47,046 nucleotides of DNA from Pseudomonadota bacterium (GTDB lineage Bacteria; Pseudomonadota; Alphaproteobacteria; SP197), in the NCBI GenBank assembly GCA_027592745.1, contig JAQCLG010000011.1, positions 1 to 47,046 of the forward strand, read 5' to 3'. Positions 3,181 through 40,486 of the stretch are shown here, piece by piece. The notes under the pieces are model-generated. The model worked only from the letters and a program-made list of their open reading frames with translations, did no database searches and was not told where the DNA came from. The first letter of the stretch is position 1, and each line of letters starts with the position of its first letter. Made by a program: the position numbers and the translations under genes.

Positions 3181-5202
3181 TCAGTTGCCGTCGCGCGGGA
3201 TGGTCTCGTTCCAGGTCCGCGCGAAGACGGGCTTGCCGTTCTCCAGGGCTTCGAGTTCGGCGTGGAAGTGGAAATCGGTCCGGTCGGCCGTCAGGTTCTG
3301 GCTGGTGCGGATCTCGATCTCGATGCCGTCCTTGCGCCAGGTATCGACGCGCCGGGTTTCGGAGCGTGCCGACAGGGGATCGCCCTCGACGATGCTGTGC
3401 CAGTTCTCGCCGCGCTCGCCCTCCAGGAGACCCGTGTCGTCGTGGCGCACCAGGCCGCCATCCTGGAGCTGATGGGCGGTGACGGTGCCGGTGACGGCAT
3501 CGCGGGTGACCTCGCGGCACAGGCCGCGGCCCGGTTCAACGACCGTGGCGGGGCTGCCCGGGCCGTTGACCGCTTCGCCGAAGGGGGCGAAGGCGCCGTC
3601 GCCGGCATCGGCGCGGCGCACCGGCAGTTCGAGATGGCAGCGCCCGGCCAGCAGGGTCAGCGTCACCGGTTCCGGCGAGGGCCAGACCAGCGGGAAGTAG
3701 GTCGAGGAGACCGAGACGGCGATGCGGTGGCCGGCCGGGAAGGCATGGCCGATATCGTCGACCTCGACGCGCACGGTGATCGGCCTGCCCGGCTCCAGCG
3801 GTGTGGTGGTGGAGGGGTCCTCCGGGCGGTTGAGGTTGAGCACGCCGTGATGGACGCGGGTCGAGGCACCATCGGGCGTGACGTCGTTGAGGCGCACGGC
3901 GACAAAGGCGTTGGGCCGGTCGCTCGAGAGCGTCAGTTCGACGATCGGCGCGCCCAGGATCTCGATGCGCTCGGCGAGCGGTTCGGAGAGGAAGACGAGG
4001 CTGACGGCATCGTCGCCGCGCTGGTCCGGCGAGAAGGTGCCGGGTTCGCCGTGATGGCAGAGCATGGCCTGGTGGGTACCGGTGGCCTGGAGGGAGTTGA
4101 GGAGCAGCGGCACCTCATCGCCGGCCGCGCGCTCCAGGCGCCCCGGATTCATCGCCCAGACCTGGGTCTCGATATGGGGGCTGGGCCAGGAGGGTTCGCC
4201 GACCCAGCGGCCGGGGCGTTCGGGATAAACGGTGGCCGGGGCAACGCTGTCCTGGATCCAGGCGCGGTACATGGGTTCGTCCATGATCCCGGTATCGATG
4301 CCCTTGAGCCAGTGGTCCCACCAGCGCACGGTCTCCTGCAGGAAGCCGATGGCCGGGCCGGGATGGCCCTTGTTGGGGTACTGGTGCGCCCAGGGTCCCG
4401 AAAGCCCCTTGCGCGGACAGGAAAGGCCTGCGAGCAGGCGCGGCACCGCCTCGTTGTAGTTGTCGGCCCAGCCGGAGACGGCATAGACGGCGCAGGTGAT
4501 GGCCGAGAAATCCTCGTTGACGCTGCCCTGGCGCCAGTAGTCGTCGCGCCGCTGGTGGCGCAGCCATTCCAGGGTCCAGGGCGTGTTGGCCTCCAGGCGG
4601 GCCTGCCACATCCCGCGCCAGGCCTCGCCGACCAGCTCCGGGTCGGGCGGCAGGGCGTTGTAGCCGAACATCACGCTGCCCCAGGCGATGTTGTCCTTGA
4701 TCAGGCAGCCGCCGTAGTAGTGCACGTCGGTGGCGTAGCGGTCGTCGGTCGAGCCGATGGTGACGATGGCCTTCAGGGCCGGGGGACGGCGTGCGGCGAT
4801 CTGCAGGCCGTTGAAGCCTCCCCAGGAGATGCCGATGATGCCGACCGCGCCGGTGCACCAGGACTGATCCGCCAGCCAGGCGACGATCTCGCAGCCGTCG
4901 CGCTGTTCCTGGACGCTGTATTCGTCGTGGTAGACGCCCTCGCTGTCGCCGGTGCCGCGGATGTCGACCCGCACGCAGGCGTAGCCGGCCTCCGCCACGG
5001 GAGGATGGTTGGTGCGGTCGCGGCCGCGCGTGCCGTCGCGCTTGCGGTAGGGCAGGTATTCCAGGATCGCCGGCACCGGCTCGTCCTCGGCATCGATGGG
5101 CAGCCAGATCTTGGCCGCCAGGCGGGTGCCGTCCGACAGCGGGATCCAGCAATGCTCGATCTCGCGGATGGCGCGCGGCTTGGCGGCGAAGTGTTCGGTC
5201 AT
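3181..5202 (-). CDS. CocE/NonD family serine hydrolase (paralogue 1)
   Basis: A 673-residue alpha/beta hydrolase of the CocE/NonD/X-Pro dipeptidyl-peptidase (PepX) superfamily. The nucleophile is Ser126 in GISWGGFNG. The likely acid is Asp247 (SGWADNY) and the likely histidine His273 (GPWAHQYP). After the catalytic domain come the family's jelly-roll domain (roughly 330-560) and an extra C-terminal segment ending NETIPRDGN. Known members cleave cocaine ester, dipeptides or acylated beta-lactams; the substrate here is unknown. No signal peptide is evident, so it is probably cytoplasmic. It is last in an operon, 14 bp after paralogue 2. ATG 5200-5202 follows GAGAGAAAG. The much longer frame reading in from 7143 is not real upstream of this ATG. 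Confidence 0.9.
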   Translation of the reverse strand: MTEHFAAKPRAIREIEHCWIPLSDGTRLAAKIWLPIDAEDEPVPAILEYLPYRKRDGTRGRDRTNHPPVAEAGYACVRVDIRGTGDSEGVYHDEYSVQEQRDGCEIVAWLADQSWCTGAVGIIGISWGGFNGLQIAARRPPALKAIVTIGSTDDRYATDVHYYGGCLIKDNIAWGSVMFGYNALPPDPELVGEAWRGMWQARLEANTPWTLEWLRHQRRDDYWRQGSVNEDFSAITCAVYAVSGWADNYNEAVPRLLAGLSCPRKGLSGPWAHQYPNKGHPGPAIGFLQETVRWWDHWLKGIDTGIMDEPMYRAWIQDSVAPATVYPERPGRWVGEPSWPSPHIETQVWAMNPGRLERAAGDEVPLLLNSLQATGTHQAMLCHHGEPGTFSPDQRGDDAVSLVFLSEPLAERIEILGAPIVELTLSSDRPNAFVAVRLNDVTPDGASTRVHHGVLNLNRPEDPSTTTPLEPGRPITVRVEVDDIGHAFPAGHRIAVSVSSTYFPLVWPSPEPVTLTLLAGRCHLELPVRRADAGDGAFAPFGEAVNGPGSPATVVEPGRGLCREVTRDAVTGTVTAHQLQDGGLVRHDDTGLLEGERGENWHSIVEGDPLSARSETRRVDTWRKDGIEIEIRTSQNLTADRTDFHFHAELEALENGKPVFARTWNETIPRDGN

Positions 5203-5216
5203 GGTTGTACTTTCTC

Positions 5217-7235
5217 TCAGATGCCGTCTCGCGGGATGGTCCGGTCCCAGGTTCTCTCGAAGATGCGCACGCCGTTCTCCTCGACCGCGATCGTCGCCTC
5301 CAGACGGAATGCCTCGGCCGTGCAGGTGAGGCGCTGACTGGTGTGGGAGACGACCTTCCAGTCGCCCCGGCGGCGGCTCATCATGAAGGTCGACCACTGC
5401 TGCGCCGAGGTCGGATCGCCCTCGACGATGCGGTGGAAGACCTCGCCGTCGGCCTCGTTTTCCATCGCGATGGCGTCGATGACGTGGGCGCCCTCGTCGC
5501 GTGGCAGGCGCACGACAGTCTCGCCGGTATAGGCATCGCGGCGGATGTCGCGGGTGTTGAACGGCGCTTCGCGCAGGACGATCACGGAGCCCGTCCTGCC
5601 GCCGACCGGCGGTCCGTAGAGGGGCAGGTCGGCATCGGCCGGATCGGGCGGGCGCACCGGCAGGCGCAGGCGGCTGGTACCGGCGTGGACGGTCAGGGTG
5701 ACCACTTCCGGACTGGGCCAGAGCAGGGGCCAGTTGGTCGAGGAGAGCGAGAGCGCGATGCGATGGCCCGGCGCGAAGCTGTGGGCGATGTCGTCGATTT
5801 CCACGGTGACGCGGCAGGGCCTGCCCGGCTCCAGCGGGTCGGTGCGGTCCATGCCGTTGCGCCGGGTGAGGTTGAGCACGCCGTGGTGGACGCGGGTCGA
5901 GGCGCCGTCGGGCGCGACATCGTTGAGGCGCACGGCAACCTGGGCGACCGGGCGGTCGCTCGACAGGATGAGTTCGACAAGCGGGGCGCCCATGATCTCG
6001 ATGCGCTCGGCGAGCGGTTCGGTGACGAAGACGAGGCTGGCGCCATCGTCCTCGCGCTGGTCGCCGGGCCACTCGCCGCCTTCGCCGTAGCGACCCAGTT
6101 CGCCCTGGGTGAGGCCGGTGGTCTGCATGGAGCAGACCGGCAGCGGTGTTTCCGGGCCCGCCCCGGCTTCCAGGCGGCCGGGATTGAGGAAAAGTTCCTG
6201 CCAGGCGATGCGCGGACTGGGCCAGGTCGCTTCGGCGACCCAGCGGCCGGGCAGGCTGGCGTAGTCGGTGCGGGGCGGGCGGCTGTCGCACATCCAGGCG
6301 CGCAGCATGGGTTCGTCCATGATCCCGGTGTCGATGCCCTTGAGCCAGTGATCCCACCAGCGCAGGCATTCCTGCAGGAAGCCGATGGTCGGGCCGGGAC
6401 GACCATCGTGCGGGTAGATGTGGGCCCAGGGACCGATCAGACCCTTGCGCGGACAGGTCAGGCCGCCGAGCATGCGGGTGATGGCCTCGCTGTAGTTGTC
6501 GCCCCAGCCGTTGACCAGGAAACAGGCCGCCTCGATCTTCCCGAAGTCCTCGCAGACGCTGCCCTGGCGCCAGTAGTCGTCGCGCCGCTGGTGTTCCAGC
6601 CACGGGATCACCAGGGGGCGGATCGCCTCCAGGCGCTCCAGCCACATGGGTCGCCAGGCCTGTCCGACCAGCTCGGGATCGGGCGGCATGCCGCCCAGCG
6701 CGAACATGTAGGCCGACCAGTCCAGGTTGTCCTTGGTCAGGGCGCCGCCGTAGTAGTGGACGTCGGTGGCGTAGCGGTCGTCGGTCGAGCCGACCGAGAC
6801 GACGGCCTTGAGCGCGGGCGGACGCATGGCGGCGATCTGCAGGCCGTTGAAGCCGCCCCAGGACTTGCCGATCATGCCCACCTTGCCGTCGCACCAGGGC
6901 TGGGCGGCGATCCAGGCGATGACGTCGAAGCCGTCCTGCTGCTCCTGGGGCAGGTACTCGTCGTGGCAGACGCCCTCGCTGTCGCCGGTGCCGCGCAGGT
7001 CGACGCGCAACACGGCGTAGCCGGCCTCGGCGATGGGCAGGTGCAGGCTTTCGTCGCGCGCGCGCGTGCCGTCGCGCTTGCGGTAGGGGATGTATTCCAG
7101 GATCGCCGGCACGGGATCGTCGTGTGCGTCCTCGGGCAGCCACATGCGGGCGGCCAGCCGGGTGCCGTCGGCAAGCGGAATCCAGAGATGCTCGATCTCG
7201 CGCACGGCGCGCGGGTTCGCAACAAGGTCCGGCAT
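5217..7235 (-). CDS. CocE/NonD family serine hydrolase (paralogue 2)
   Basis: A 672-residue paralogue of the gene at 3181, similar over its whole length. The likely triad is Ser125 (GKSWGGFNG), Asp246 (NGWGDNY) and His272 (GPWAHIYP). The jelly-roll domain and the C-terminal extension ending RTIPRDGI are both present. The residue before the nucleophile is Lys where the three other paralogues have Ile, so specificity may differ. It has no signal peptide. It lies 65 bp after the M81 metallopeptidase and 14 bp before paralogue 1, all on one strand, so co-transcription is likely. An ester, amide or peptide substrate is inferred only from the family. Confidence 0.9.
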   Translation of the reverse strand: MPDLVANPRAVREIEHLWIPLADGTRLAARMWLPEDAHDDPVPAILEYIPYRKRDGTRARDESLHLPIAEAGYAVLRVDLRGTGDSEGVCHDEYLPQEQQDGFDVIAWIAAQPWCDGKVGMIGKSWGGFNGLQIAAMRPPALKAVVSVGSTDDRYATDVHYYGGALTKDNLDWSAYMFALGGMPPDPELVGQAWRPMWLERLEAIRPLVIPWLEHQRRDDYWRQGSVCEDFGKIEAACFLVNGWGDNYSEAITRMLGGLTCPRKGLIGPWAHIYPHDGRPGPTIGFLQECLRWWDHWLKGIDTGIMDEPMLRAWMCDSRPPRTDYASLPGRWVAEATWPSPRIAWQELFLNPGRLEAGAGPETPLPVCSMQTTGLTQGELGRYGEGGEWPGDQREDDGASLVFVTEPLAERIEIMGAPLVELILSSDRPVAQVAVRLNDVAPDGASTRVHHGVLNLTRRNGMDRTDPLEPGRPCRVTVEIDDIAHSFAPGHRIALSLSSTNWPLLWPSPEVVTLTVHAGTSRLRLPVRPPDPADADLPLYGPPVGGRTGSVIVLREAPFNTRDIRRDAYTGETVVRLPRDEGAHVIDAIAMENEADGEVFHRIVEGDPTSAQQWSTFMMSRRRGDWKVVSHTSQRLTCTAEAFRLEATIAVEENGVRIFERTWDRTIPRDGI

Positions 7236-7300
7236 GCAGGCTTTCTCGACGGCTGGGGACAGCAGCCTAGCAGAGGAAACCGGGCGAAGGCGAGCCGTGC

Positions 7301-8773
7301 TCAGCCGACCAGCAGACGGATCTCGGGTTCGCCCTGATCGAAGGGCCAGCGCGGACGCTGCATCTTCGTGAACGGCAGGTTCTCGAAGTCGGGGGCGACG
7401 ACGCCGGGCGCGCCGACGTGGATCACCTGGCTGGCGAGAGGGGCGAAACCGGTGTGGAAATGCTGCGTCGACTTCACGACCACGATCCTGCGTTCGGCCG
7501 GCTCGATACCGACATTTCGGAAGAGATGCGGGGAATAGGCCTGGGTGCGGATGGCGGTGAGCACGACATCGATGCCGCTGCCGTGGATCGCGGCGCAATC
7601 GCCAAGGTCCGCGCGGGCCGGGCCGAGGAACTGATGCGCGTCGCGGGCGAGACCCGTGACCGTGACGTCGAGATCGACCGGCTGGCCCGAGAGCGGGCAC
7701 ATCTTGCCGCCGAAGCGCAGGGCGAGCCTGGCGCCCAGGCCGGCATCGAAACATGTGCGCACGGCAACGGGGTCCCACAGGGGACCCACGGCCATGCCGG
7801 TGATGCCGCGCTCCAGGGCGCGCGCGATCATCCAGGTCGAATCGCCGGGCGCCCCGCCACCGGCGTTGTCGGCCTTGTCGGCGAGCACGACGGGGCCGTG
7901 CGGGTCCGCAAGAGCGAGATCGTAGGCCGCGTCGATGGCATGGTACTGCGCATCGGTCGTACCGCGCATGGCGGCGACCTCGCGGGCGAGCGAGAGCGCC
8001 AGTTCGGCCCCCCTGGCCGGCCGGTTGTCGGTGACGACCAGGACGCGGGTGCCCAGATCGGCAACGTCGCCCCAGGGGAAGCCGTGGCCGAGAGAGACCG
8101 ACAGCACGCCGTCCCTGCCTTCCATGGCGCTCATGCGGTCGACCAGGCTGCGCACCGGCTCCATCGTGGTGTGGATCATCGCCAGGATGCCGGTGTCGGC
8201 CAGCGTCATCACCGGGCGGATGTCGCCGCGGGCCGTGGCCATCAGCAGGTCGATGAGTTCCTCGGCGCGCTCCAGGATGTCGGTGTGGGGGTATTCCTTG
8301 TAGGCGACCAGGACGTCGGCGGCCTCGAGCATCTGCGGTGTCAGGTGGCAGTGCAGGTCGAGTGCGGCGCCGACCGCGACGCCGGCCCCGACGATCTCGC
8401 GGGTGCGCGCCAGCATGTCGCCTTCGCAGTCGTCGTAGCCCTCGGCAATCATAGCGCCGTGCATGTAATAGGCCACGAGATCGACCGGCATGGCGGCGCG
8501 AAGTTCGTCGAGGATGCGGTCGCGCAGGGTTTCGTAGGCCGCCCGCGTGGTGATGCCGGCGGGTTCGGCCATGGTGCACAGGCCCTCGATCAGGACATGG
8601 TTGCCGCGGGCCGCGCGGTCGCGTGCCGCGACCAGGGGAGCGCCGGCGAAGGTCGCATGTTCGGGATGGGTTCCGGCCGGAAACCACTCGGTCTCGCGAA
8701 AACCCTGCTCGGCCGTGGGGAAGGGAGCGAAGGTGTTGGTTTCGGTGCCGAGACCGGCGACGAACATGCGCAT
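7301..8773 (-). CDS. M81 family metallopeptidase (MlrC/microcystinase C-like)
   Basis: A 490-residue protein of the M81 family (DUF1485 plus MlrC C-terminal domain). It has GLGTETNTF at the N-terminus, Glu63 (LIEGL), the metal motif LDLHCHLT (Asp139, His141) and His163 in YKEYPHTD. The D-x-H...22...H spacing is that expected of MlrC zinc ligands. The later DNAGGGAPGDSTW and HTGFAPLA stretches are also typical. MlrC degrades linear microcystin or tetrapeptide, but most homologues act on other, unidentified substrates. ATG 8771-8773 is chosen because AAGGG sits 6 bases upstream; a second ATG lies at 8767. It starts 16 bp after the permease, in the hydrolase operon. Confidence 0.88.
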   Translation of the reverse strand: MRMFVAGLGTETNTFAPFPTAEQGFRETEWFPAGTHPEHATFAGAPLVAARDRAARGNHVLIEGLCTMAEPAGITTRAAYETLRDRILDELRAAMPVDLVAYYMHGAMIAEGYDDCEGDMLARTREIVGAGVAVGAALDLHCHLTPQMLEAADVLVAYKEYPHTDILERAEELIDLLMATARGDIRPVMTLADTGILAMIHTTMEPVRSLVDRMSAMEGRDGVLSVSLGHGFPWGDVADLGTRVLVVTDNRPARGAELALSLAREVAAMRGTTDAQYHAIDAAYDLALADPHGPVVLADKADNAGGGAPGDSTWMIARALERGITGMAVGPLWDPVAVRTCFDAGLGARLALRFGGKMCPLSGQPVDLDVTVTGLARDAHQFLGPARADLGDCAAIHGSGIDVVLTAIRTQAYSPHLFRNVGIEPAERRIVVVKSTQHFHTGFAPLASQVIHVGAPGVVAPDFENLPFTKMQRPRWPFDQGEPEIRLLVG

Positions 8774-8789
8774 GGGATGCCCTTGGCGA

Positions 8790-10040
8790 TCAGAGGAGGA
8801 CGTCGAGCAGGCTCACCCAGCCGTAGGTCAAGGCGACGGAGACGACGGTGACCGGCAGCATCATCCATGCGAAACGCCAGAAGGTGAAGGGCGTGGGGCC
8901 GAACTTCTCGGCCTGCTGCACGACGATGACGTTGCTCGCTGCGCTGATGACGAGAAGATTGCCGGCCAGGGTCGCGACGCCGGCAAGCATCATGAGGGTG
9001 GACAGCGGGGCATCGGGCAGGAGCTGCAGGTAGAGCGTGACCAGCGGCACGTTGGAGACGACCTGGCTGCCCCAGAAGGCGACCACGGCGGCCGTTGCGG
9101 GATCGCCGAGGTCGCCCCGGAACGCGGCGAGCATGGCCTGCAGCGCGCCCAAGCGCATGAGGGCGGCAGTGACCACGAACATTGCGGCAAAGAAGATCAG
9201 GGTCGCCCAGTCGACCTCGCGCAGGGTGCGCAGCCGGCGGCGGCCGAACAGGTAGACCGGCGCGCAGGCGATCAGGCTGATGGCGCCGTAGGGCAGGCCC
9301 GCCCGCTGGCCGAGTGCGCCCTGCAGGCCGTCGGCGCCGATCAGGGCGATCAGCAGGAAGGCCGCGGCATAGGCCGGCCAGGTGCGCGGTGTGTCTTGGG
9401 GCAGCGGCAGGACGTGGCGTTCCGGCGCAGCGGGGGCGTCCGCCGCCGGCAGCAGCCGGGCGAGCCAGAACCAGGCGAAGGCGAGGGAGGCCAGGGAGGG
9501 CACCGCCAGCCAGAGCGCGAAGTCGGCGAGCGGGCGCGGCACGCCGCCGGAGGTCGCGACCAGGATGTTCTGGGGATTGCCGATGGGCGTGGCCATGCTG
9601 CCGACGGTGACCGCGGCGCACAGCGCGACGAGCGGCACGCCGGGCGGCCAGCCGAAGGCGCCCGCCAGCATCAGGGCGACCGGCACGCCGATCACCGCGG
9701 CGGCATCGTTGGTCAGTGCGGCGGCGCCGCCCGCCGCGGCGAGCAGGAACAGCAGGAAGGCGCGCGACGACTGCCCCGAGCGGCCCAGGCGCCGCCCCAG
9801 GGCATGGGAGATGCCGCTGTCGTAGAGCGCGGCGGCAATGGAGAAGACACCGAACAGGTAGGCGATGACGTTCCAGTCGATCGCGGCCAGCGCCGCGCCC
9901 GGCTCGATCTCGCCGGCCAGGAGCAGGACCAGCGCGCCGGCGACCATGACGTGCCAGATGCGCAGCGCCGGGGGCAGCCACTGGCGCATGGCGATGACCA
10001 GGACGACAAGCAGGCTGACGACGAGGCTGACGGTGAACAT
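8790..10040 (-). CDS. Ion-transporter superfamily permease (ArsB/NhaD/SLC13-like)
   Basis: A 416-residue, very hydrophobic protein with about 10-12 predicted membrane helices in two repeated halves. The hallmark half-site sequences are LTNDAAAVIGVPVALML, GSMATPIGNPQNI in the first half, and VVSNVPLVTLYL with NLLVISAASNVIVVQQAE in the second. These mark the CitMHS/ArsB/NhaD (PF03600-like) fold, which moves organic anions, arsenite or Na+/H+. The substrate is not readable from sequence. As first gene of an operon with a metallopeptidase and two serine hydrolases, it may import their substrate or export a product; that is inference. It is divergent from the methyltransferase across 114 bp. Confidence 0.85.
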   Translation of the reverse strand: MFTVSLVVSLLVVLVIAMRQWLPPALRIWHVMVAGALVLLLAGEIEPGAALAAIDWNVIAYLFGVFSIAAALYDSGISHALGRRLGRSGQSSRAFLLFLLAAAGGAAALTNDAAAVIGVPVALMLAGAFGWPPGVPLVALCAAVTVGSMATPIGNPQNILVATSGGVPRPLADFALWLAVPSLASLAFAWFWLARLLPAADAPAAPERHVLPLPQDTPRTWPAYAAAFLLIALIGADGLQGALGQRAGLPYGAISLIACAPVYLFGRRRLRTLREVDWATLIFFAAMFVVTAALMRLGALQAMLAAFRGDLGDPATAAVVAFWGSQVVSNVPLVTLYLQLLPDAPLSTLMMLAGVATLAGNLLVISAASNVIVVQQAEKFGPTPFTFWRFAWMMLPVTVVSVALTYGWVSLLDVLL

Positions 10041-32659: not shown

Positions 32660-32833
32660 GTGAGGCGGATTTCTGCCTGGTGCGTGATCCGCATACTTTC
32701 CTGGGGCCAATGTCTTTTTCCAGGGAGCTGGCTCTGTCGAGAGTGTTGCTCTCGTTACCCGGCGCCCACCTGCTGACGCAGGCCACGGTGAAAGATGCAA
32801 TCGGTTGACGGCCGAGGTGGTGCCGCTTCACAA
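32660..32833 (+). ncRNA. ssrS: 6S RNA (RNA polymerase-binding regulatory RNA)
   Basis: The region lies between zapA and the 5-formyl-THF cyclo-ligase, the standard proteobacterial site of ssrS. GTGAGGCGG (32662-32670) pairs with GCCGCTTCAC (32822-32831), allowing G-U pairs, to close a long hairpin. CGAGAG-TGTTG-CTCTCG (32738-32754) is a perfect apical stem. The length of about 174 fits. 6S RNA mimics an open promoter and holds housekeeping RNA polymerase in stationary phase. Only 8 bases separate it from the next start codon. Ends are estimates. Confidence 0.85.
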
Positions 32834-32841
32834 CGCTCCCC

Positions 32842-33417
32842 ATGAGCATCCAAGACGACAAGGCGCGGTTGCGCGCCTGGGCCCTGGAGCGCCGTCCGGC
32901 GCTGCACGCGGCCCTTCCCGAGGCCGGGCAGAAGGCCTGCCGCCATTTCCTGACCCGGATCGGCTTTCCCGCCGGGGCCGAGATCTCGGCCTACCTGCCG
33001 GTCAGGGACGAGTTCGACGTCATGCCCTTTGCCTATACGGCGCATGCCTTCGGCCACCGGGTCGGCATGCCGGTGGTGCTGGGCAAGGACAAACCCCTGC
33101 AGTTCCGCGAGTGGACGCCCGACACGGTGCTGGAAGCAGGCACGATGGGCATCCCGATCCCGCCGATCGATGCCGCGCTGATCATGCCGCGCCTGCTGCT
33201 GGTGCCGCTGATGGCCTTCGACACGCAGGGCTACCGGCTGGGCTACGGCGGCGGCTTCTACGACCGCACCCTGGCGACGCTGCGGCTGCTGGAGCCCGAG
33301 ACGCTGGCGGTGGGCGTCTGTTACGCCGGCCTGGAAGTCGATGCTGTGCCCCACGACGGCTACGACCAGCCGCTCGACTGGATCGTTACGGAAGAGGGCG
33401 CGCGCGCCTTCGTCTGA
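32842..33417 (+). CDS. fau: 5-formyltetrahydrofolate cyclo-ligase
   Basis: A 191-residue cyclo-ligase. LRAWALERRPAL starts the fold, ISAYLPVRDEFD follows, and the signature LVPLMAFDTQGYRLGYGGGFYDRTL includes the nucleotide-binding G-Y-G-G-G-F-Y-D-R. It converts 5-formyl-THF to 5,10-methenyl-THF with ATP. ATG 32842 has no recognisable ribosome-binding site; the bases upstream belong to 6S RNA, suggesting processing or joint expression as at E. coli ssrS-ygfA. The CocE paralogue 3 begins 75 bp downstream. Confidence 0.95.
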   Translation: MSIQDDKARLRAWALERRPALHAALPEAGQKACRHFLTRIGFPAGAEISAYLPVRDEFDVMPFAYTAHAFGHRVGMPVVLGKDKPLQFREWTPDTVLEAGTMGIPIPPIDAALIMPRLLLVPLMAFDTQGYRLGYGGGFYDRTLATLRLLEPETLAVGVCYAGLEVDAVPHDGYDQPLDWIVTEEGARAFV

Positions 33418-33492: not shown

Positions 33493-35508
33493 GTGGACAA
33501 GCCGCTCGAACCGAAGATCGTGACCGCCTATCCGCACAAGGTGCGCGAGATCGAGCACATGTGGGTGCCGATGCCCGACGGCACCCGCCTGTCGGCCAAG
33601 GTCTGGCTGCCGGAAGATGCCGACGACCATCCGGTACCCGTGATCCTGGAGTACATCCCCTACCGCAAGCGTGACGGCACGCGGGCGCGCGACGACACCA
33701 TGCATCCCTGGTGGGCCGGCCACGGTTATGCCTGCGTGCGCCTCGACATCCGCGGCACCGGTGAATCCGAAGGTGTCATCACCGACGAATACACCGCCCA
33801 GGAACTGCAGGACGGCTTCGACGCCATCGCATGGCTGGCCGCCCAGCCCTGGTGCGCGGGCACGGTGGGCATGACCGGCATCTCCTGGGGCGGCTTCAAC
33901 GGGCTGCAGATCGCGGCCCTGCGGCCGCCGGCCCTGAAGGCCATCGTGACGCTGTGTTCGACCGACGACCGTTATGCCGACGACGTGCATTTCATGGGCG
34001 GCACGATCACGCTGGACAACTGGTTCTGGGGTGCCGGCTTCTTCCAGTTCATGGCCCGCCCGGGCGACCCGGAGATCCAGGGCGAGCGCTGGCGCGAGCA
34101 GTGGCGGCAGCGGCTGGAGCAGTGGGAGCCGGTCGCCTCGACCATCTGGCTGCAGCACCAGCGGCGCGACGCCTACTGGAAACACGGCTCGGTGTGCGAG
34201 AACCACGGGGACATCACCTGCGCGGTCTATGCCGCGGGCGGCTGGGAGGACGGCTATTCCAACGCCATCCCGCGCCTGCTGGCCAACCTGAAGGGACCGC
34301 GCAAGGGCCTGGCCGGTCCCTGGGGCCACAAGTACCCGCATATCGGCGTGCCCGGCCCGGCGATCGACTGGATGCACGAGAGCCTGAAGTGGTGGGACCA
34401 CTGGCTGAAGGGCATCGACAACGGCATCATGGACGAACCCATGTACCGGGTGTGGATGCGCGAACCCAGCGTGCCCGATGCCATGCTGCAGATGGCAAGG
34501 GGCCGCTGGGTCACCGAACCCTCCTGGCCCTCGCCGCGCATCGGCGCGCGTTCCTGGACGCTGCTGGCGCAGGGCAACGATCCGGTGACGGTCAAGGCGC
34601 GCCAGACCGTGGGCAGCGCCGCGGGCAACTGGTGTCCCTACGGCCTGGGCGGCACGGGCCCCGACCTTGCGGTCGACCAGAGCGAGGACGACGGCCGGTC
34701 GATCGCCTTCGAATCGGCGCCCTTCGACGAACGCTTCGAATTCATGGGCCAGCCGGTCGTGAAGCTGAAGGTCTCGGTCGACAAGCCCCAGGCCTTCCTG
34801 GCGGTGCGCCTGGTCGATGTCGCACCCGACGGCACGGCCGCGCGGGTGACCTACCAGCTGCTCAACCTGACCCACCGCAACGACCACGAACACCTCGACC
34901 CGATCCCCGTGGGCGTGCCGATGGACGTGGAGGTCCACCTCAACGACATGGCCTGGTCGTTCCCGGCCGGCCACCGGCTGCGCGTCGCGGTCTCGACCGC
35001 CTACTGGCCGGTGATCTGGCCCTCGCCCGAGGCGGTGGCGCTGACCGTGTACGCCTGCGACCTGACGCTGCCAGAGCGCAAGCCGCAGGCCGACGACGGC
35101 GGCGACCCCTTCGGCCCGCCCGAGATGGCGACGCCGACGGTGCGCACGGTGATCGAACCGGGCCGCTCGGCGCGCACCGTGACGCGCGACCTGATCACCG
35201 GCGAGACCGTCACCGACCAGGTCGAGGAACATGGCGTGTGGCGCTACGACGCCATCGATCTCATCTGCTCGGAAGGGCTGACCGTGCAGTACCGCATCAA
35301 GGACGACGACCCGCTCTCGGCCGTGGCGCGCTGGGAGGCCCATTCCAGCCGCATGCGGGAGGGCTGGGACATCGAGGTCAGGAGTTCCTACACGGTGCGC
35401 GCGACGCGGGAGAACTTCCTGGTCGATGCGGTGTTGGAGACCTGGGACGACGGCAAGCCCTTCTTCAGCCGGACATGGAGCCATACGGTGCCGCGCGACG
35501 GCGTCTGA
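33493..35508 (+). CDS. CocE/NonD family serine hydrolase (paralogue 3)
   Basis: About 671 residues. The likely triad is Ser131 (GISWGGFNG), Asp253 (GGWEDGY) and His279 (GPWGHKYP). The jelly-roll domain follows and the C-terminal extension ends HTVPRDGV. GTG 33493 is chosen because the next residues (DKPLEPKIV) align with the start of paralogue 4, and GGGGGA lies about 10 bases upstream; a GTG at 33457 would add 12 residues. It is closest to paralogue 4, 23 bp downstream, indicating tandem duplication. No signal peptide. The 909-codon frame on the opposite strand (32755-35484) is a composition shadow. The substrate is unknown. Confidence 0.9.
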   Translation: MDKPLEPKIVTAYPHKVREIEHMWVPMPDGTRLSAKVWLPEDADDHPVPVILEYIPYRKRDGTRARDDTMHPWWAGHGYACVRLDIRGTGESEGVITDEYTAQELQDGFDAIAWLAAQPWCAGTVGMTGISWGGFNGLQIAALRPPALKAIVTLCSTDDRYADDVHFMGGTITLDNWFWGAGFFQFMARPGDPEIQGERWREQWRQRLEQWEPVASTIWLQHQRRDAYWKHGSVCENHGDITCAVYAAGGWEDGYSNAIPRLLANLKGPRKGLAGPWGHKYPHIGVPGPAIDWMHESLKWWDHWLKGIDNGIMDEPMYRVWMREPSVPDAMLQMARGRWVTEPSWPSPRIGARSWTLLAQGNDPVTVKARQTVGSAAGNWCPYGLGGTGPDLAVDQSEDDGRSIAFESAPFDERFEFMGQPVVKLKVSVDKPQAFLAVRLVDVAPDGTAARVTYQLLNLTHRNDHEHLDPIPVGVPMDVEVHLNDMAWSFPAGHRLRVAVSTAYWPVIWPSPEAVALTVYACDLTLPERKPQADDGGDPFGPPEMATPTVRTVIEPGRSARTVTRDLITGETVTDQVEEHGVWRYDAIDLICSEGLTVQYRIKDDDPLSAVARWEAHSSRMREGWDIEVRSSYTVRATRENFLVDAVLETWDDGKPFFSRTWSHTVPRDGV

Positions 35509-35531
35509 ACGATTTTGCAGGGGATAGAGGC

Positions 35532-37583
35532 ATGATGCTGGTGCAGGCGACCGAGCCGAAGGTGGTGCGCGACTTTCCGCACAAGGTGCGCGAACTGGAA
35601 CACGTCTGGGTGCCGATGAGCGACGGCACGCGGCTTTCGGCGCGCATCTGGATGCCCGAGGATGCCGAGACCAGGCCGGTACCGGCGATCCTGGAATACA
35701 TCCCCTACCGCAAGCGCGACGGCACGCGGGCCTGGGACGATCCGCGCCATCGCTGGTGGGCCGGCCACGGCTATGCCGCGATCCGTCTCGATATCCGCGG
35801 CACGGGCGAAAGCGAAGGCACGATCACCGACGAGTACACGCCCCAGGAACAGGCCGACGCCGTCGAGGCGATCGCCTGGATCGCCGCCCAGCCCTGGTGC
35901 ACCGGCAAGGTCGGCATGACCGGCATCTCCTGGGGCGGCTTCAACAGCCTGCAGGTCGCCGCCCACCGGCCGCCGGCGCTGAAGGCGATCATCACGCACT
36001 GCTCGACCGACGACCGCTATGCCGACGACGTGCATTTCATGGGCGGCTGTCTGCTGATCGACAACTTCTTCTGGGGTTCGGGGTTCTTCGAGTTCATGGC
36101 GCGCCAGGGCGATCCCCTGATCCAGGGTGAGCGCTGGCGCGAGCAGTGGCTCGCGCGTCTGGAAAGCTGGGAGCCGGTCGCCGCGACGATCTGGCAGCAG
36201 CACCAGCGGCGCGACGCCTACTGGAAGCAGGGTTCGGTCAACGAGAACTACGGCGACATCACCTGCGCGGTCTATGCCGTGGGCGGCTGGGCCGACGGCT
36301 ATTCCAATGCCATCCCACGCATGCTGGCCAACCTGAAATGCCCGACCAAGGGGCTGGTCGGACCTTGGGGCCACAAGTACCCGCAGGATGCGATTCCGGG
36401 GCCTTCCATCGGCTGGATGCAGGAAAGCCTGCGCTGGTGGGACCACTGGCTGAAGGGTGCCGAGAACGGCATCATGGAGGAGCCGGCCTACCGCGTGTGG
36501 CTCGACGAGCCCCAGGCGCCCGACGCCTGCCTGGCGATGTCCCAGGGGCGCTGGGTGACCGAACCGGCATGGCCCTCGGCCAACATCGGCGAGACGGTGC
36601 TGCATCTCAACGCCGACGGGCTGGCGCCGAAGAAACGGCGCTCGACCATGCTCGAACACAGCACGCCGCTGATCATGGGTGGGGCGAGCGGCGTCTGGTG
36701 CCCCTACGGCCTGGGCGGTTCGAGCCCGGATCTGGCGGGCGACCAGCGCGAGGACGACGCCTGTTCGCTGTGTTTCGACACGGCGCCGCTGGACGAACGG
36801 CTGGAGGTTCTGGGCGCGCCGGTGGTGAGGTTGCGGCTGGCCATCGACAAGCCCCAGGGCATGGTTGCGGTGCGGCTCAACGATGTTGCACCCGACGGCA
36901 GTTCGCTGCGGGTTTCCTTCGGCCTGCTCAACCTTTCCCATCGCAAGAGCCATGAACACCCGCGCGCGATGAAGCCGGGCGCCATGGTCGATGTCGACGT
37001 GCAGCTCAACGACCTGGCGCACGCCTTCCCCGCCGGCCATCGCATCCGCATCGCGGTTTCGACGAGCTACTGGCCGATGGCCTGGCCGTCGCCCGAAAGG
37101 GTGACGATGACGCTGGCGACCGGGCGCAGCACGCTGGCCCTGCCGGTGCGCGCGCCGCGTGCGGAGGATGCCCAGGTGCCGGCATTCGAGGCCCCGGAAA
37201 TGGCACCGATGCCAGAGATGGAAGAGATCGCGCCCGCCGTGGGCACGCGCCATGTCGAGCGCGACATCGCAACGGGCGAACAGATCGTGCGGGTCGTGGA
37301 GGATGGCGGCGTCACCCGCTATCCCGCGCTCGACCTGGTGGCGGCGGACGGGGCAAGCGTCGATCTCGCCATCACGGAGGGTGACCCGGCCTCGGCGCGC
37401 GGAACCTGGCGCTGGCACAGCCGGCGCACGCGCGGCGCGTGGGACGTGACGACGACCTCGCAGATGACGGTGACGGTATCGGAGGAAGCCTTCCATATCG
37501 CGACCGACCTTGAAGCCTTCGAGGGCGACAAGCGCATCTTCGCGCGCAGGTGGAACCACGACGTGAAGCGGGATCACCTGTAG
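35532..37583 (+). CDS. CocE/NonD family serine hydrolase (paralogue 4)
   Basis: A 683-residue hydrolase. Ser133 (GISWGGFNS), Asp255 (GGWADGY) and His281 (GPWGHKYP) are the likely triad. The C-terminal extension ends RRWNHDVKRDHL, changed from the PRDG of the other three. The start has ATGATG at 35532, with GGGGA and GAGG upstream. It lies in an apparent operon: 23 bp after paralogue 3 and 36 bp before an SDR, followed by a beta-lactamase-fold hydrolase. The neighbouring enzymes suggest stepwise processing of one compound, but the sequence does not reveal it. Confidence 0.9.
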   Translation: MMLVQATEPKVVRDFPHKVRELEHVWVPMSDGTRLSARIWMPEDAETRPVPAILEYIPYRKRDGTRAWDDPRHRWWAGHGYAAIRLDIRGTGESEGTITDEYTPQEQADAVEAIAWIAAQPWCTGKVGMTGISWGGFNSLQVAAHRPPALKAIITHCSTDDRYADDVHFMGGCLLIDNFFWGSGFFEFMARQGDPLIQGERWREQWLARLESWEPVAATIWQQHQRRDAYWKQGSVNENYGDITCAVYAVGGWADGYSNAIPRMLANLKCPTKGLVGPWGHKYPQDAIPGPSIGWMQESLRWWDHWLKGAENGIMEEPAYRVWLDEPQAPDACLAMSQGRWVTEPAWPSANIGETVLHLNADGLAPKKRRSTMLEHSTPLIMGGASGVWCPYGLGGSSPDLAGDQREDDACSLCFDTAPLDERLEVLGAPVVRLRLAIDKPQGMVAVRLNDVAPDGSSLRVSFGLLNLSHRKSHEHPRAMKPGAMVDVDVQLNDLAHAFPAGHRIRIAVSTSYWPMAWPSPERVTMTLATGRSTLALPVRAPRAEDAQVPAFEAPEMAPMPEMEEIAPAVGTRHVERDIATGEQIVRVVEDGGVTRYPALDLVAADGASVDLAITEGDPASARGTWRWHSRRTRGAWDVTTTSQMTVTVSEEAFHIATDLEAFEGDKRIFARRWNHDVKRDHL

Positions 37584-37619
37584 CATCGCCCCGCTGCATC
37601 CCTGAAAGGACAACAGGCC

Positions 37620-38303
37620 ATGGCCAAGGAACGGGCACTGATCGTCGGCGTGGGGGACGGGCTTTCGGCCTCCCTCGCACGGCTCTTCCACAGGGAAGGC
37701 ATGGCGCTGGCGCTGGCGGCGCGGAACACGAACAAGCTCGCGGGACTCGCCGAGGAGACGGGGGCGAAGGTCTATGCCTGCGATGCGGCCGACCGTGGCG
37801 ACGTGGCGAGCCTTTTCGATGCGCTCGAGCGCGACGGGCTGACCCCGGACCTGGCGGTCTACAATCCCAGCTTCCGCGTGCGCGGGCCGTTCGTGGAACT
37901 GGACCAGGAGGCGGTCGAGAAGACGCTGATGGTCTGCGCCTACGGCGCCTTCCTTGTGGGCCAGCATGCCGCACAGCGGATGCTGAAGGCGGGCCACGGC
38001 ACGATCCTGTTCACCGGCGCCTCGGCGGGGGTGAAAGGTTATGCCCGGTCGGCGCCCTTCGCGATGGGCAAGTTCGCGTTGCGCGGACTGGCGCAGTCCA
38101 TGGCGCGCGAACTGCATCCCCGGAACATCCACATCGGCCATTTCGTGATCGATGGCGGCATCGCGAAAGCCGGCGAGCCGCGCGGCGAGGACAGCACGCT
38201 GCAGCCCGACGCCATTGCCGAGAGTTACCTGCAGTTCCACCGCCAGGACCGCTCGTCCTGGGCCTGGGAGCTGGAACTGCGCCCCTGGGTGGAGACCTTC
38301 TGA
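37620..38303 (+). CDS. SDR family protein with catalytic Tyr replaced by Phe
   Basis: A 227-residue SDR fold. The nucleotide loop is LIVGVGDGLSASLARLF, and YNPS replaces NNAG. Ser135 (FTGAS) and Lys151 are kept, but Tyr is Phe147 (PFAMGKFALRGLAQSMA). The PFAMGKFALR stretch recurs in a recognisable SDR subfamily, so the change is probably old and not an error. The cofactor would still bind; classic hydride transfer is doubtful. The stop overlaps the next start (TGATG). It is part of the second hydrolase operon. Confidence 0.85.
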   Translation: MAKERALIVGVGDGLSASLARLFHREGMALALAARNTNKLAGLAEETGAKVYACDAADRGDVASLFDALERDGLTPDLAVYNPSFRVRGPFVELDQEAVEKTLMVCAYGAFLVGQHAAQRMLKAGHGTILFTGASAGVKGYARSAPFAMGKFALRGLAQSMARELHPRNIHIGHFVIDGGIAKAGEPRGEDSTLQPDAIAESYLQFHRQDRSSWAWELELRPWVETF

Positions 38304-39382
38304 TGGCGGCTCTCCCGCGGAACGATCCGGCCGCGGCCGGGTTCGATGCAGCCAAGCTGGCCGAGGCCTGCGCCTGGGCGGGGCGCCACGACAGCGGCGT
38401 GCCCGAGAGCCTGGATGCCTACCTTGCCGCCAGCGCCTTCAAGGACGGGGCCTGGGGCGAGACCCTGGGGCCGACGAAGGACCGGGGACCGTGTTCGGGG
38501 CTGGTGCTGAAGGACGGGGCGGTCGTTGCCTCGTGGGGCGAGCCCCGGCGCATCGACATGACCTTCTCGGTGACCAAGAGCATGCTCGCGGCGGTCGCCG
38601 GCGTGGCCTTCGATCGCGGCCTGATCGGCGATCTCGACGCGCCGGTGGGCGCCAGTGTGACGACCGGCCATTTCGACGGGCCGCACAACGGCGCGATCAC
38701 CTGGCGGCACCTGCTGCAGCAGACCAGCGAGTGGGAGGGCACCCTGTGGGACAAGCCCGACCTGGTCGACCGCAACCGCGACGTCTTCGGCAAGGACAAT
38801 GCCAGGAAGGCGACGCATCGCGACCTGCAGGCGCCGGGCAGCTTCTGGGAGTACAACGACGTTCGGGTCAACGTGCTGTCCTTTGCCCTGCTGCAGCTCT
38901 TCCGCCGGCCCCTGCCGGAGGTGGCGCGCGAGGCGATCCTCGACCCCATCGGGGCTTCGTCCGAGCTGTCGTGGAACGGCTACCGCAATTCCATGGTCAC
39001 GATCGACGGCAAGGAGATGCTCTCGGTCTCGGGCGGCGGCCACTGGGGCGGCGGCATGTTCGTTTCGGCCGACGACCTGGCGCGCTTCGGCCTGCTGTTT
39101 GCGAACCGGGGGCGCTGGGGCGATCGTCAGCTTCTCTCGGAGCGCTGGGTCGATCTCTGCACGACGCCCAGCGCCATCGAACCGCGCTACGGTTTCCTGT
39201 GGTGGCTCAACACCGGAGGGGACATGGTCCCGTCGGCACCCGAAAGCAGCTTCCTGGCGCTGGGGAACGGCGGCCATCTGGTCTGGGTCGACCGCGAACA
39301 CGGCCTTGTCGCCGTGGCGCGCTGGTTGGCCGATGCGGCACACGACGGCTTCATCAAGCGGGTGCTGCAGGCGCTTGGTTGA
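38303..39382 (+). CDS. Beta-lactamase-fold serine hydrolase (class C / esterase type)
   Basis: A 359-residue protein. The nucleophile motif is Ser89-V-T-Lys92 (TFSVTKSMLA). WEYNDVRVN (from 182) supplies the Tyr of the second motif, and LGNGGHLVWVD near the C-terminus stands in for the K/H-T-G box. HLLQQTSEWEG is typical of the family. No signal peptide is visible, so a cytoplasmic esterase or amidase is likelier than an antibiotic-resistance enzyme. Its start overlaps the SDR stop. The convergent DUF2817 gene ends 12 bp away. It may complete a pathway begun by the CocE paralogues. Confidence 0.85.
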   Translation: MAALPRNDPAAAGFDAAKLAEACAWAGRHDSGVPESLDAYLAASAFKDGAWGETLGPTKDRGPCSGLVLKDGAVVASWGEPRRIDMTFSVTKSMLAAVAGVAFDRGLIGDLDAPVGASVTTGHFDGPHNGAITWRHLLQQTSEWEGTLWDKPDLVDRNRDVFGKDNARKATHRDLQAPGSFWEYNDVRVNVLSFALLQLFRRPLPEVAREAILDPIGASSELSWNGYRNSMVTIDGKEMLSVSGGGHWGGGMFVSADDLARFGLLFANRGRWGDRQLLSERWVDLCTTPSAIEPRYGFLWWLNTGGDMVPSAPESSFLALGNGGHLVWVDREHGLVAVARWLADAAHDGFIKRVLQALG

Positions 39383-39394
39383 GGCAGACAGGGC

Positions 39395-40486
39395 TCAGGA
39401 GAGGGAAGCCAGGCCCTCGAGCATCCTCGCCTGGGTCCAGGCGGCGCGTTCCCAGACCATCAGCTTCCAGTCATCGGCATCGGGATAGAAGCAGCGGCGG
39501 ATCTCCGCCTTGATCGCCTTGCCCTGGTCGCTGGCCAGATCGCCGTGGCTGTGCAGCCAGCAATCGGCTCGCACGCTGTCGAGGACCTCCTCGATCGGGC
39601 AGGTGCCGTATTCCAGGGTGACCATGGTGAGGCTCGTGCCCTTCGGCATCTGCCTGCGGATGCCGATGTCGTTGGTGCCGGTGAGCGGCGCGGAGGTCGA
39701 ACTGCCGTCGTCGGTGGCGGTCACCTCGTTGCCCAGCCAGGCCTTGAGGCGCTCGCGCCCAGGATCGCCCGCGGGGGAATCGCCGATCAGTTCGCCGTAG
39801 CCGTAGGGGCCAAGACCGGTGTGGTAGTCGATGACGCCGACGTGGCGCGCCGCAGCGGCGTGTTCGCCGAGGATGGCGTAGAGCGTGCGGGCCGACCAGG
39901 TCAGATGCCGGCCGCCGAAGAAGACGCCCCGGTCGTCCTCGTGCTGGCCGCCCGAGACCGCCTGCTGCAGGGCCATCCAGCCGTGTTCGTCGGCATAACC
40001 GCGCAGGTGGCGGGTGGCATCGGCGCAGGTCTCCTCGTCCCAGAAACGCGGACAGATGAAGTCCTTCAGGGTGCGGTAGCCATGATTTTCCGGATAGGGC
40101 GCATCGTGGTCGACGTGGTTGCGGTTGAGATCGACGTTGTCCTCGTTGACCCGGCGCAGCCAGGCAAAGCCGTAAGGGTTGATGGCGTGGACGATGACCA
40201 GGGCGGTGTCAGCGGGAAGTTCGCGCCACTGGCCGGTGAGCAGCGTGCCAACCTGGGCGCCCGAGCCGCAGAATCCCTCGACGCCATGGGTCGCCGACAG
40301 GGTGACCAGCAGACGGGAGGCATCGGCAGGGCCGATGCGCACGACATCGGTGGCCAGTTCCTCGCCGCCGGGACCCTTCTCGGGATTGACGTGATGGGCG
40401 GGGACGAAACCGGCTTCGGCGGCGGCGTCGAGGAATCGCGCGCGCGCATCGCTGTAGGTGGAGGAGAAGAAGTCGGCGGGCTGCAT
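39395..40486 (-). CDS. DUF2817 / M14-like zinc carboxypeptidase family protein
   Basis: A 363-residue protein. The metal motif is His67-x-x-Glu70 (SATHGVEGFCGSG), then the substrate-binding Asn-Arg pair (NVDLNRN, 121-122), a third metal ligand in DYHTGLGPYG, and a catalytic Glu in VTLEYGT. This is the M14 carboxypeptidase plan as found in DUF2817. It probably removes an acyl or amino-acid group at an amide bond. ATG 40484-40486 has GAGG five bases upstream; the earlier start at 40567 adds unconserved residues. It converges with the second hydrolase operon and lies 31 bp from the TerB-like gene. Confidence 0.87.
   Translation of the reverse strand: MQPADFFSSTYSDARARFLDAAAEAGFVPAHHVNPEKGPGGEELATDVVRIGPADASRLLVTLSATHGVEGFCGSGAQVGTLLTGQWRELPADTALVIVHAINPYGFAWLRRVNEDNVDLNRNHVDHDAPYPENHGYRTLKDFICPRFWDEETCADATRHLRGYADEHGWMALQQAVSGGQHEDDRGVFFGGRHLTWSARTLYAILGEHAAAARHVGVIDYHTGLGPYGYGELIGDSPAGDPGRERLKAWLGNEVTATDDGSSTSAPLTGTNDIGIRRQMPKGTSLTMVTLEYGTCPIEEVLDSVRADCWLHSHGDLASDQGKAIKAEIRRCFYPDADDWKLMVWERAAWTQARMLEGLASLS

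Follow-up and report, generated by a model that had tools for sequence, protein, structure and literature searches.

Two predicted long-form CocE/NonD hydrolases encoded in a conserved gene block with an SDR-fold protein and a NylB-like serine hydrolase

The closest described relative of the two main proteins considered here is cocaine esterase, CocE (PDB 1ju3 and relatives), which is roughly 574 residues long and combines a PF02129 catalytic domain and a PF08530 domain with a Tyr-Ser-Asp-His tetrad and the motifs PY, GxSWGG, GWxDGY and GPWxH. The alpha-amino acid ester hydrolases and X-Pro dipeptidyl-peptidases (S15) have this fold in common with it, and some members of the family, the alpha-amino acid ester hydrolases, form amide bonds via acyl transfer. 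We analysed a window of 47,046 nucleotides, contig C64 of a 3.85 Mb alphaproteobacterial genome in 263 contigs. A preliminary description of this DNA had placed two CocE paralogues in one run with an SDR and a serine hydrolase, and our domain matches bear this out for four co-directional genes (Table 1). The same description spoke of five hydrolases, a count that we correct to four hydrolases and an SDR-fold protein. The DUF2817/M14-like gene that it saw facing the run is indeed convergent with it.

Table 1. Features of the window discussed in the text.
Feature	Position	Strand	Description	Pfam
CocE2	3181-5202	-	paralogue, clade apart from CocE3/CocE4	
CocE1	5217-7235	-	paralogue, clade apart from CocE3/CocE4	
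5-formyltetrahydrofolate cyclo-ligase (5FCL) gene	32842-33417	+	upstream of CocE3; name presumed from the sequence	
CocE3	33493-35508	+	671 aa, GTG start, long-form CocE/NonD hydrolase (predicted)	
CocE4	35532-37583	+	683 aa, long-form CocE/NonD hydrolase (predicted); the conserved CocE at the locus	
SDR-fold protein (SDR)	37620-38303	+	227 aa	PF13561/PF00106
BLA	38303-39382	+	359 aa; serine hydrolase, class C beta-lactamase-related, NylB-like	PF00144
DUF2817 protein	39395-40486	-	363 aa, convergent with the run	PF10994 (E 7e-112)

Like cocaine esterase, CocE3 and CocE4 each match PF02129 and PF08530, and they score 245.6 and 268.5 bits, respectively, against the TIGR00976 subfamily model, for which the cut-off is 66.3 bits. 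The four residues of the CocE4 tetrad (Y59, S133, D255 and H281) align with those of cocaine esterase, whose motifs are shared as well, and are invariant across 65 sequences from many phyla. An AlphaFold2 model of CocE4 has a mean pLDDT of 94.7, and its best fold matches in the PDB are cocaine esterase structures, with those of the alpha-amino acid ester hydrolases and X-Pro dipeptidyl-peptidases ranking lower. Judged by these features, CocE3 and CocE4 are probably ester or amide hydrolases of the CocE/NonD fold. They differ from cocaine esterase in that identity is only ~23% and the window proteins have ~100 more residues and an additional beta-domain at the C-terminus. In the model, the last ~120 residues of CocE4 form a series of long strands; the C-terminal region has no match in Pfam, and D618, R634 and W637 (CocE4 numbering) are nearly invariant in it across the 65 sequences. 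The long form would thus be a CocE fold with an added C-terminal beta-domain that lies outside Pfam and is confidently modelled for CocE4. A true X-Pro dipeptidyl-peptidase identity was rejected, since the PRK05371 models give 82.3 and 98.3 bits, far under the curated cut-off of 642.

CocE3 and CocE4 are ~62% identical to one another and, as had been remarked earlier, resemble the pair encoded at 3181-7235, with ~50% identity. The phylogeny of these paralogues proposed in the preliminary description was run with FastTree on 164 sequences. CocE3 and CocE4 fall in a 15-member clade private to the family, and CocE1 and CocE2 lie on a separate branch in another clade; the tree rules out a recent duplication of the 3181-7235 pair as the origin of CocE3 and CocE4. 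The CocE3 copies form a supported subclade and are restricted to the window genome (G000) and to G001, G005, G013 and G015, and the window copy is 90% identical to that of G001. From these sequences, CocE3 appears to be a later, patchy copy of the CocE4 type. The genome holds 14 long-form CocE genes, two of which look broken, by an internal TAG or a split between frames (contigs C184 and C259, loci L069 and L071). Across the family, CocE matches number 7 to 18 per genome, compared with 0 to 9 in 45 alphaproteobacterial genomes of other families, where most matches are weak.

The junctions in the run had been described as coupled or overlapping. This is accurate for SDR and BLA, for which stop and start codons overlap by 1 nt (TGATG), the sole overlap within the four-gene run, but not for CocE3/CocE4 and CocE4/SDR, which are separated by 23 and 36 nt. 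CocE3 starts 75 nt past the cyclo-ligase stop codon. A 6S RNA (Rfam RF00013, 48.6 bits) lies at 32667-32827, with a zapA-like gene on one side and the cyclo-ligase gene on the other.

We compared 16 genomes of the family (f1), including G001 from the same genus as the window genome; neighbours were read from extracted regions with an in-house gene caller, and gene starts are therefore approximate. Absence of the neighbours beside CocE in every relative had been set beforehand as the refuting outcome, and we observed instead that the order CocE4-SDR-BLA is present in eight genomes from three genera, with CocE4-SDR in a ninth. The longer order 5FCL-CocE4-SDR-BLA likewise recurs in other genera. 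In one of the eight genomes, G012, the block spans two contigs, and the CocE4/SDR adjacency there is deduced. A CocE4 orthologue adjoins the cyclo-ligase or DUF2817 gene in 13 of the 16 genomes, and as called it overlaps the cyclo-ligase gene by 4 nt in G004, G006 and G007. Four genomes (G008, G010, G011 and G014) keep CocE4 without SDR and BLA, G006 keeps SDR without BLA, and G002, G003 and G005 have neither a CocE4 orthologue nor the DUF2817 gene of the locus. Across the family, SDR at 65% identity or more (nine genomes) and BLA at 58% or more (eight genomes) are confined to this locus. G004 and G007 have an arginine-deiminase/DDAH-like gene inserted after CocE4 and before SDR (L048:8077-9051 and L050:1995-3029). 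Relative to G001, dN/dS is 0.13-0.16 for CocE3, CocE4, SDR and BLA (0.13 for CocE3), and these four genes are under purifying selection. With these values and a gene order that recurs in other genera, the locus is more than a chance arrangement.

A conserved order is nevertheless weak evidence of joint function here, because synteny extends from tkt all the way to the lysyl-tRNA synthetase (LysRS) gene, the tkt, zapA, cyclo-ligase, TerB-like, helicase and LysRS genes being collinear as well. The main rival explanation is accordingly that these genes lie together only through common descent, in a stable region, and that CocE3 and CocE4, SDR, BLA and the DUF2817 protein act in unrelated reactions. 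We regard this as a serious possibility, although not the one we would expect. It is in keeping with the genomes in which CocE4 is retained and SDR and BLA are absent, and with a DUF2817 gene that lies on the other strand and is separated from BLA in G009 and G012 by a three-gene set that is xanthine-dehydrogenase-like (XDH-like) by eye. It sits less easily with the persistence of SDR and BLA near CocE4 in three genera despite inserts elsewhere in the block, with the 1-nt SDR/BLA overlap, which recurs in G001, or with the similar selective constraint on CocE3, CocE4, SDR and BLA. The evidence for functional coupling at the locus is only moderate, because of the regional synteny, the four CocE4 genomes without SDR and BLA, and the two genomes in which the XDH-like set intervenes.

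The DUF2817 gene is probably outside the operon. We considered it as a member and rejected it for its opposite strand and its separation in two genomes, yet its presence tracks that of CocE4, as it occurs in the same 13 family genomes. Its dN/dS of 0.38 against G001 indicates that it evolves faster. In addition to its PF10994 match, the protein has invariant H67, E70, H222 and E292 and an M14-like zinc ligand pattern, HxxE ... DYH. A profile search returned weak matches to REP34, carboxypeptidase N and MpaA (best E 0.013), and a single-sequence structure model was poor (pLDDT 35). We found no paper on DUF2817 function.

SDR has a Rossmann domain (PF00106/PF13561) and keeps the catalytic Ser and Lys, but Phe replaces the catalytic Tyr of the YxxxK motif (FAMGK). 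Tyr is found at this position in none of 30 aligned relatives, which sets the protein apart from classical SDRs. The closest solved SDR, 3h7a, likewise has Phe there; its PDB title is just "short chain dehydrogenase" and so gives no function. BLA has in common with NylB and the class C beta-lactamase-related hydrolases the PF00144 domain, the SxxK nucleophile motif and a conserved Tyr, although sequence similarity to them is weak; a profile search matched class C-related serine hydrolases and the 6-aminohexanoate-dimer hydrolase (NylB).

The preliminary description had suggested a catabolic or detoxifying module. The catabolic half is plausible by analogy with the paralogue loci, and we found no evidence for the detoxifying half. 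The idea that xenobiotic esters or beta-lactams are the targets, inactivated by the CocE enzymes and BLA, is prompted by fold families that include cocaine esterase, beta-lactam-acting amino acid ester hydrolases and beta-lactamase relatives. We consider it very improbable, given that the solved structures matched by the BLA profile belong to class C-related hydrolases and to amide hydrolases of the NylB type, that the chromosomal position is stable in three genera, and that no signal peptide is apparent by eye at the BLA N-terminus. In a PADLOC search the only defence-system hits were DinG-type helicase models, on the neighbouring helicase, and a defence role was therefore dropped. Taken by itself, the locus looks like a conventional hydrolase operon.

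Our preferred reading, on which we are evenly divided, is that these genes form a small operon whose products hydrolyse, inside the cell, small nitrogen compounds that are acylated or carry amide or ester linkages. As probable cytosolic serine hydrolases, CocE3 and CocE4 would cleave an ester or amide bond, with Ser133 as nucleophile, assisted by His281 and Asp255, and with Tyr59 holding the oxyanion in part. The NylB-like hydrolase would cleave a second amide or ester bond. The Tyr-less SDR would bind NAD(P) and either handle a product or have an altered or absent redox activity, and CocE3, the later copy, may broaden the substrate range. We infer a single transcript, this order of steps and the co-function of the four genes. 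The catabolic role is suggested by the family, the fold and the contexts of the paralogues rather than by the operon's own neighbours; no transporter or amino-acid gene lies beside the CocE3/CocE4 pair.

Several groups of paralogues have conserved contexts of their own. Parts of peptide-type ABC transporters occur within five genes of 35 of 89 CocE copies, rows that are not independent, many being orthologues; the genome has just 14 matches to family-5 solute-binding proteins. Individual paralogue groups keep Dpp-type transporter genes with an N-formylglutamate amidohydrolase, a D-aminoacylase-like amidohydrolase with a POT peptide transporter and solute-binding proteins, MTTB with Rieske and 2-hydroxyacid dehydrogenase genes, or an aspartoacylase-like gene with a solute-binding protein; further groups keep an amidase or an M81 peptidase. 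CocE1 and CocE2 themselves lie beside an M81 peptidase (MlrC-like, under the NCBIfam cut-off) and a CitMHS-type transporter (3181-10040 in the window), and an M81 neighbourhood is also seen in G001 and G015. These neighbours support scavenging in general. They do so less for the CocE3/CocE4 locus, because its region is syntenic, because SDR and BLA are absent from four genomes that have CocE4, and because none of 79 other CocE loci share its neighbours: no relatives of SDR, BLA or DUF2817 occur at those loci in the flanks covered, which reach up to 10 kb. SDR relatives in other families have neighbourhoods without CocE.

Hydrolase loci of this kind are numerous in this group of aquatic bacteria. 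It is conceivable, though we think it doubtful, that the long-form CocE (~670 aa, with the C-terminal beta-domain) is a family expanded to ~14 copies in the group whose orthologue groups are each specialized for a different imported nitrogen compound, CocE4-SDR-BLA being one such pathway with a tyrosine-less SDR. Such enzymes are currently annotated just as "CocE/NonD family hydrolase". The locus points to a family-wide set, and the differing conserved neighbours offer testable hints to substrates. A literature search by family name, ATP-grasp pairing and S15 expansion, with subscription papers mostly outside its coverage, found no study of such a CocE set.

A PF13535 ATP-grasp gene lies directly upstream on the same strand in 34 of 80 long-form CocE loci from many phyla, a pair on which we found no paper. 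This raises the alternative that CocE3 and CocE4 transfer acyl or aminoacyl groups, or hydrolyse something that the cell itself makes, as a peptide-like metabolite or osmolyte is synthesized and turned over. The acyl transfer by alpha-amino acid ester hydrolases would fit such a role, as would the seven other loci (L079, L080, L082, L085, L086, L088 and L090) in which a D-Ala-D-Ala-ligase-like (PF07478) gene is convergent with the long-form CocE. We nevertheless consider it improbable for CocE3 and CocE4: there is no ligase gene at their locus, and the tree puts the ATP-grasp-linked copies in another clade, without any of the family's sampled copies. Hosts of the ATP-grasp/CocE pair include Halomonas, Thiohalocapsa, Photobacterium, Nitrosomonas, actinobacteria and Nitrospirales (L077-L153, e.g. 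L084:8670-12022).
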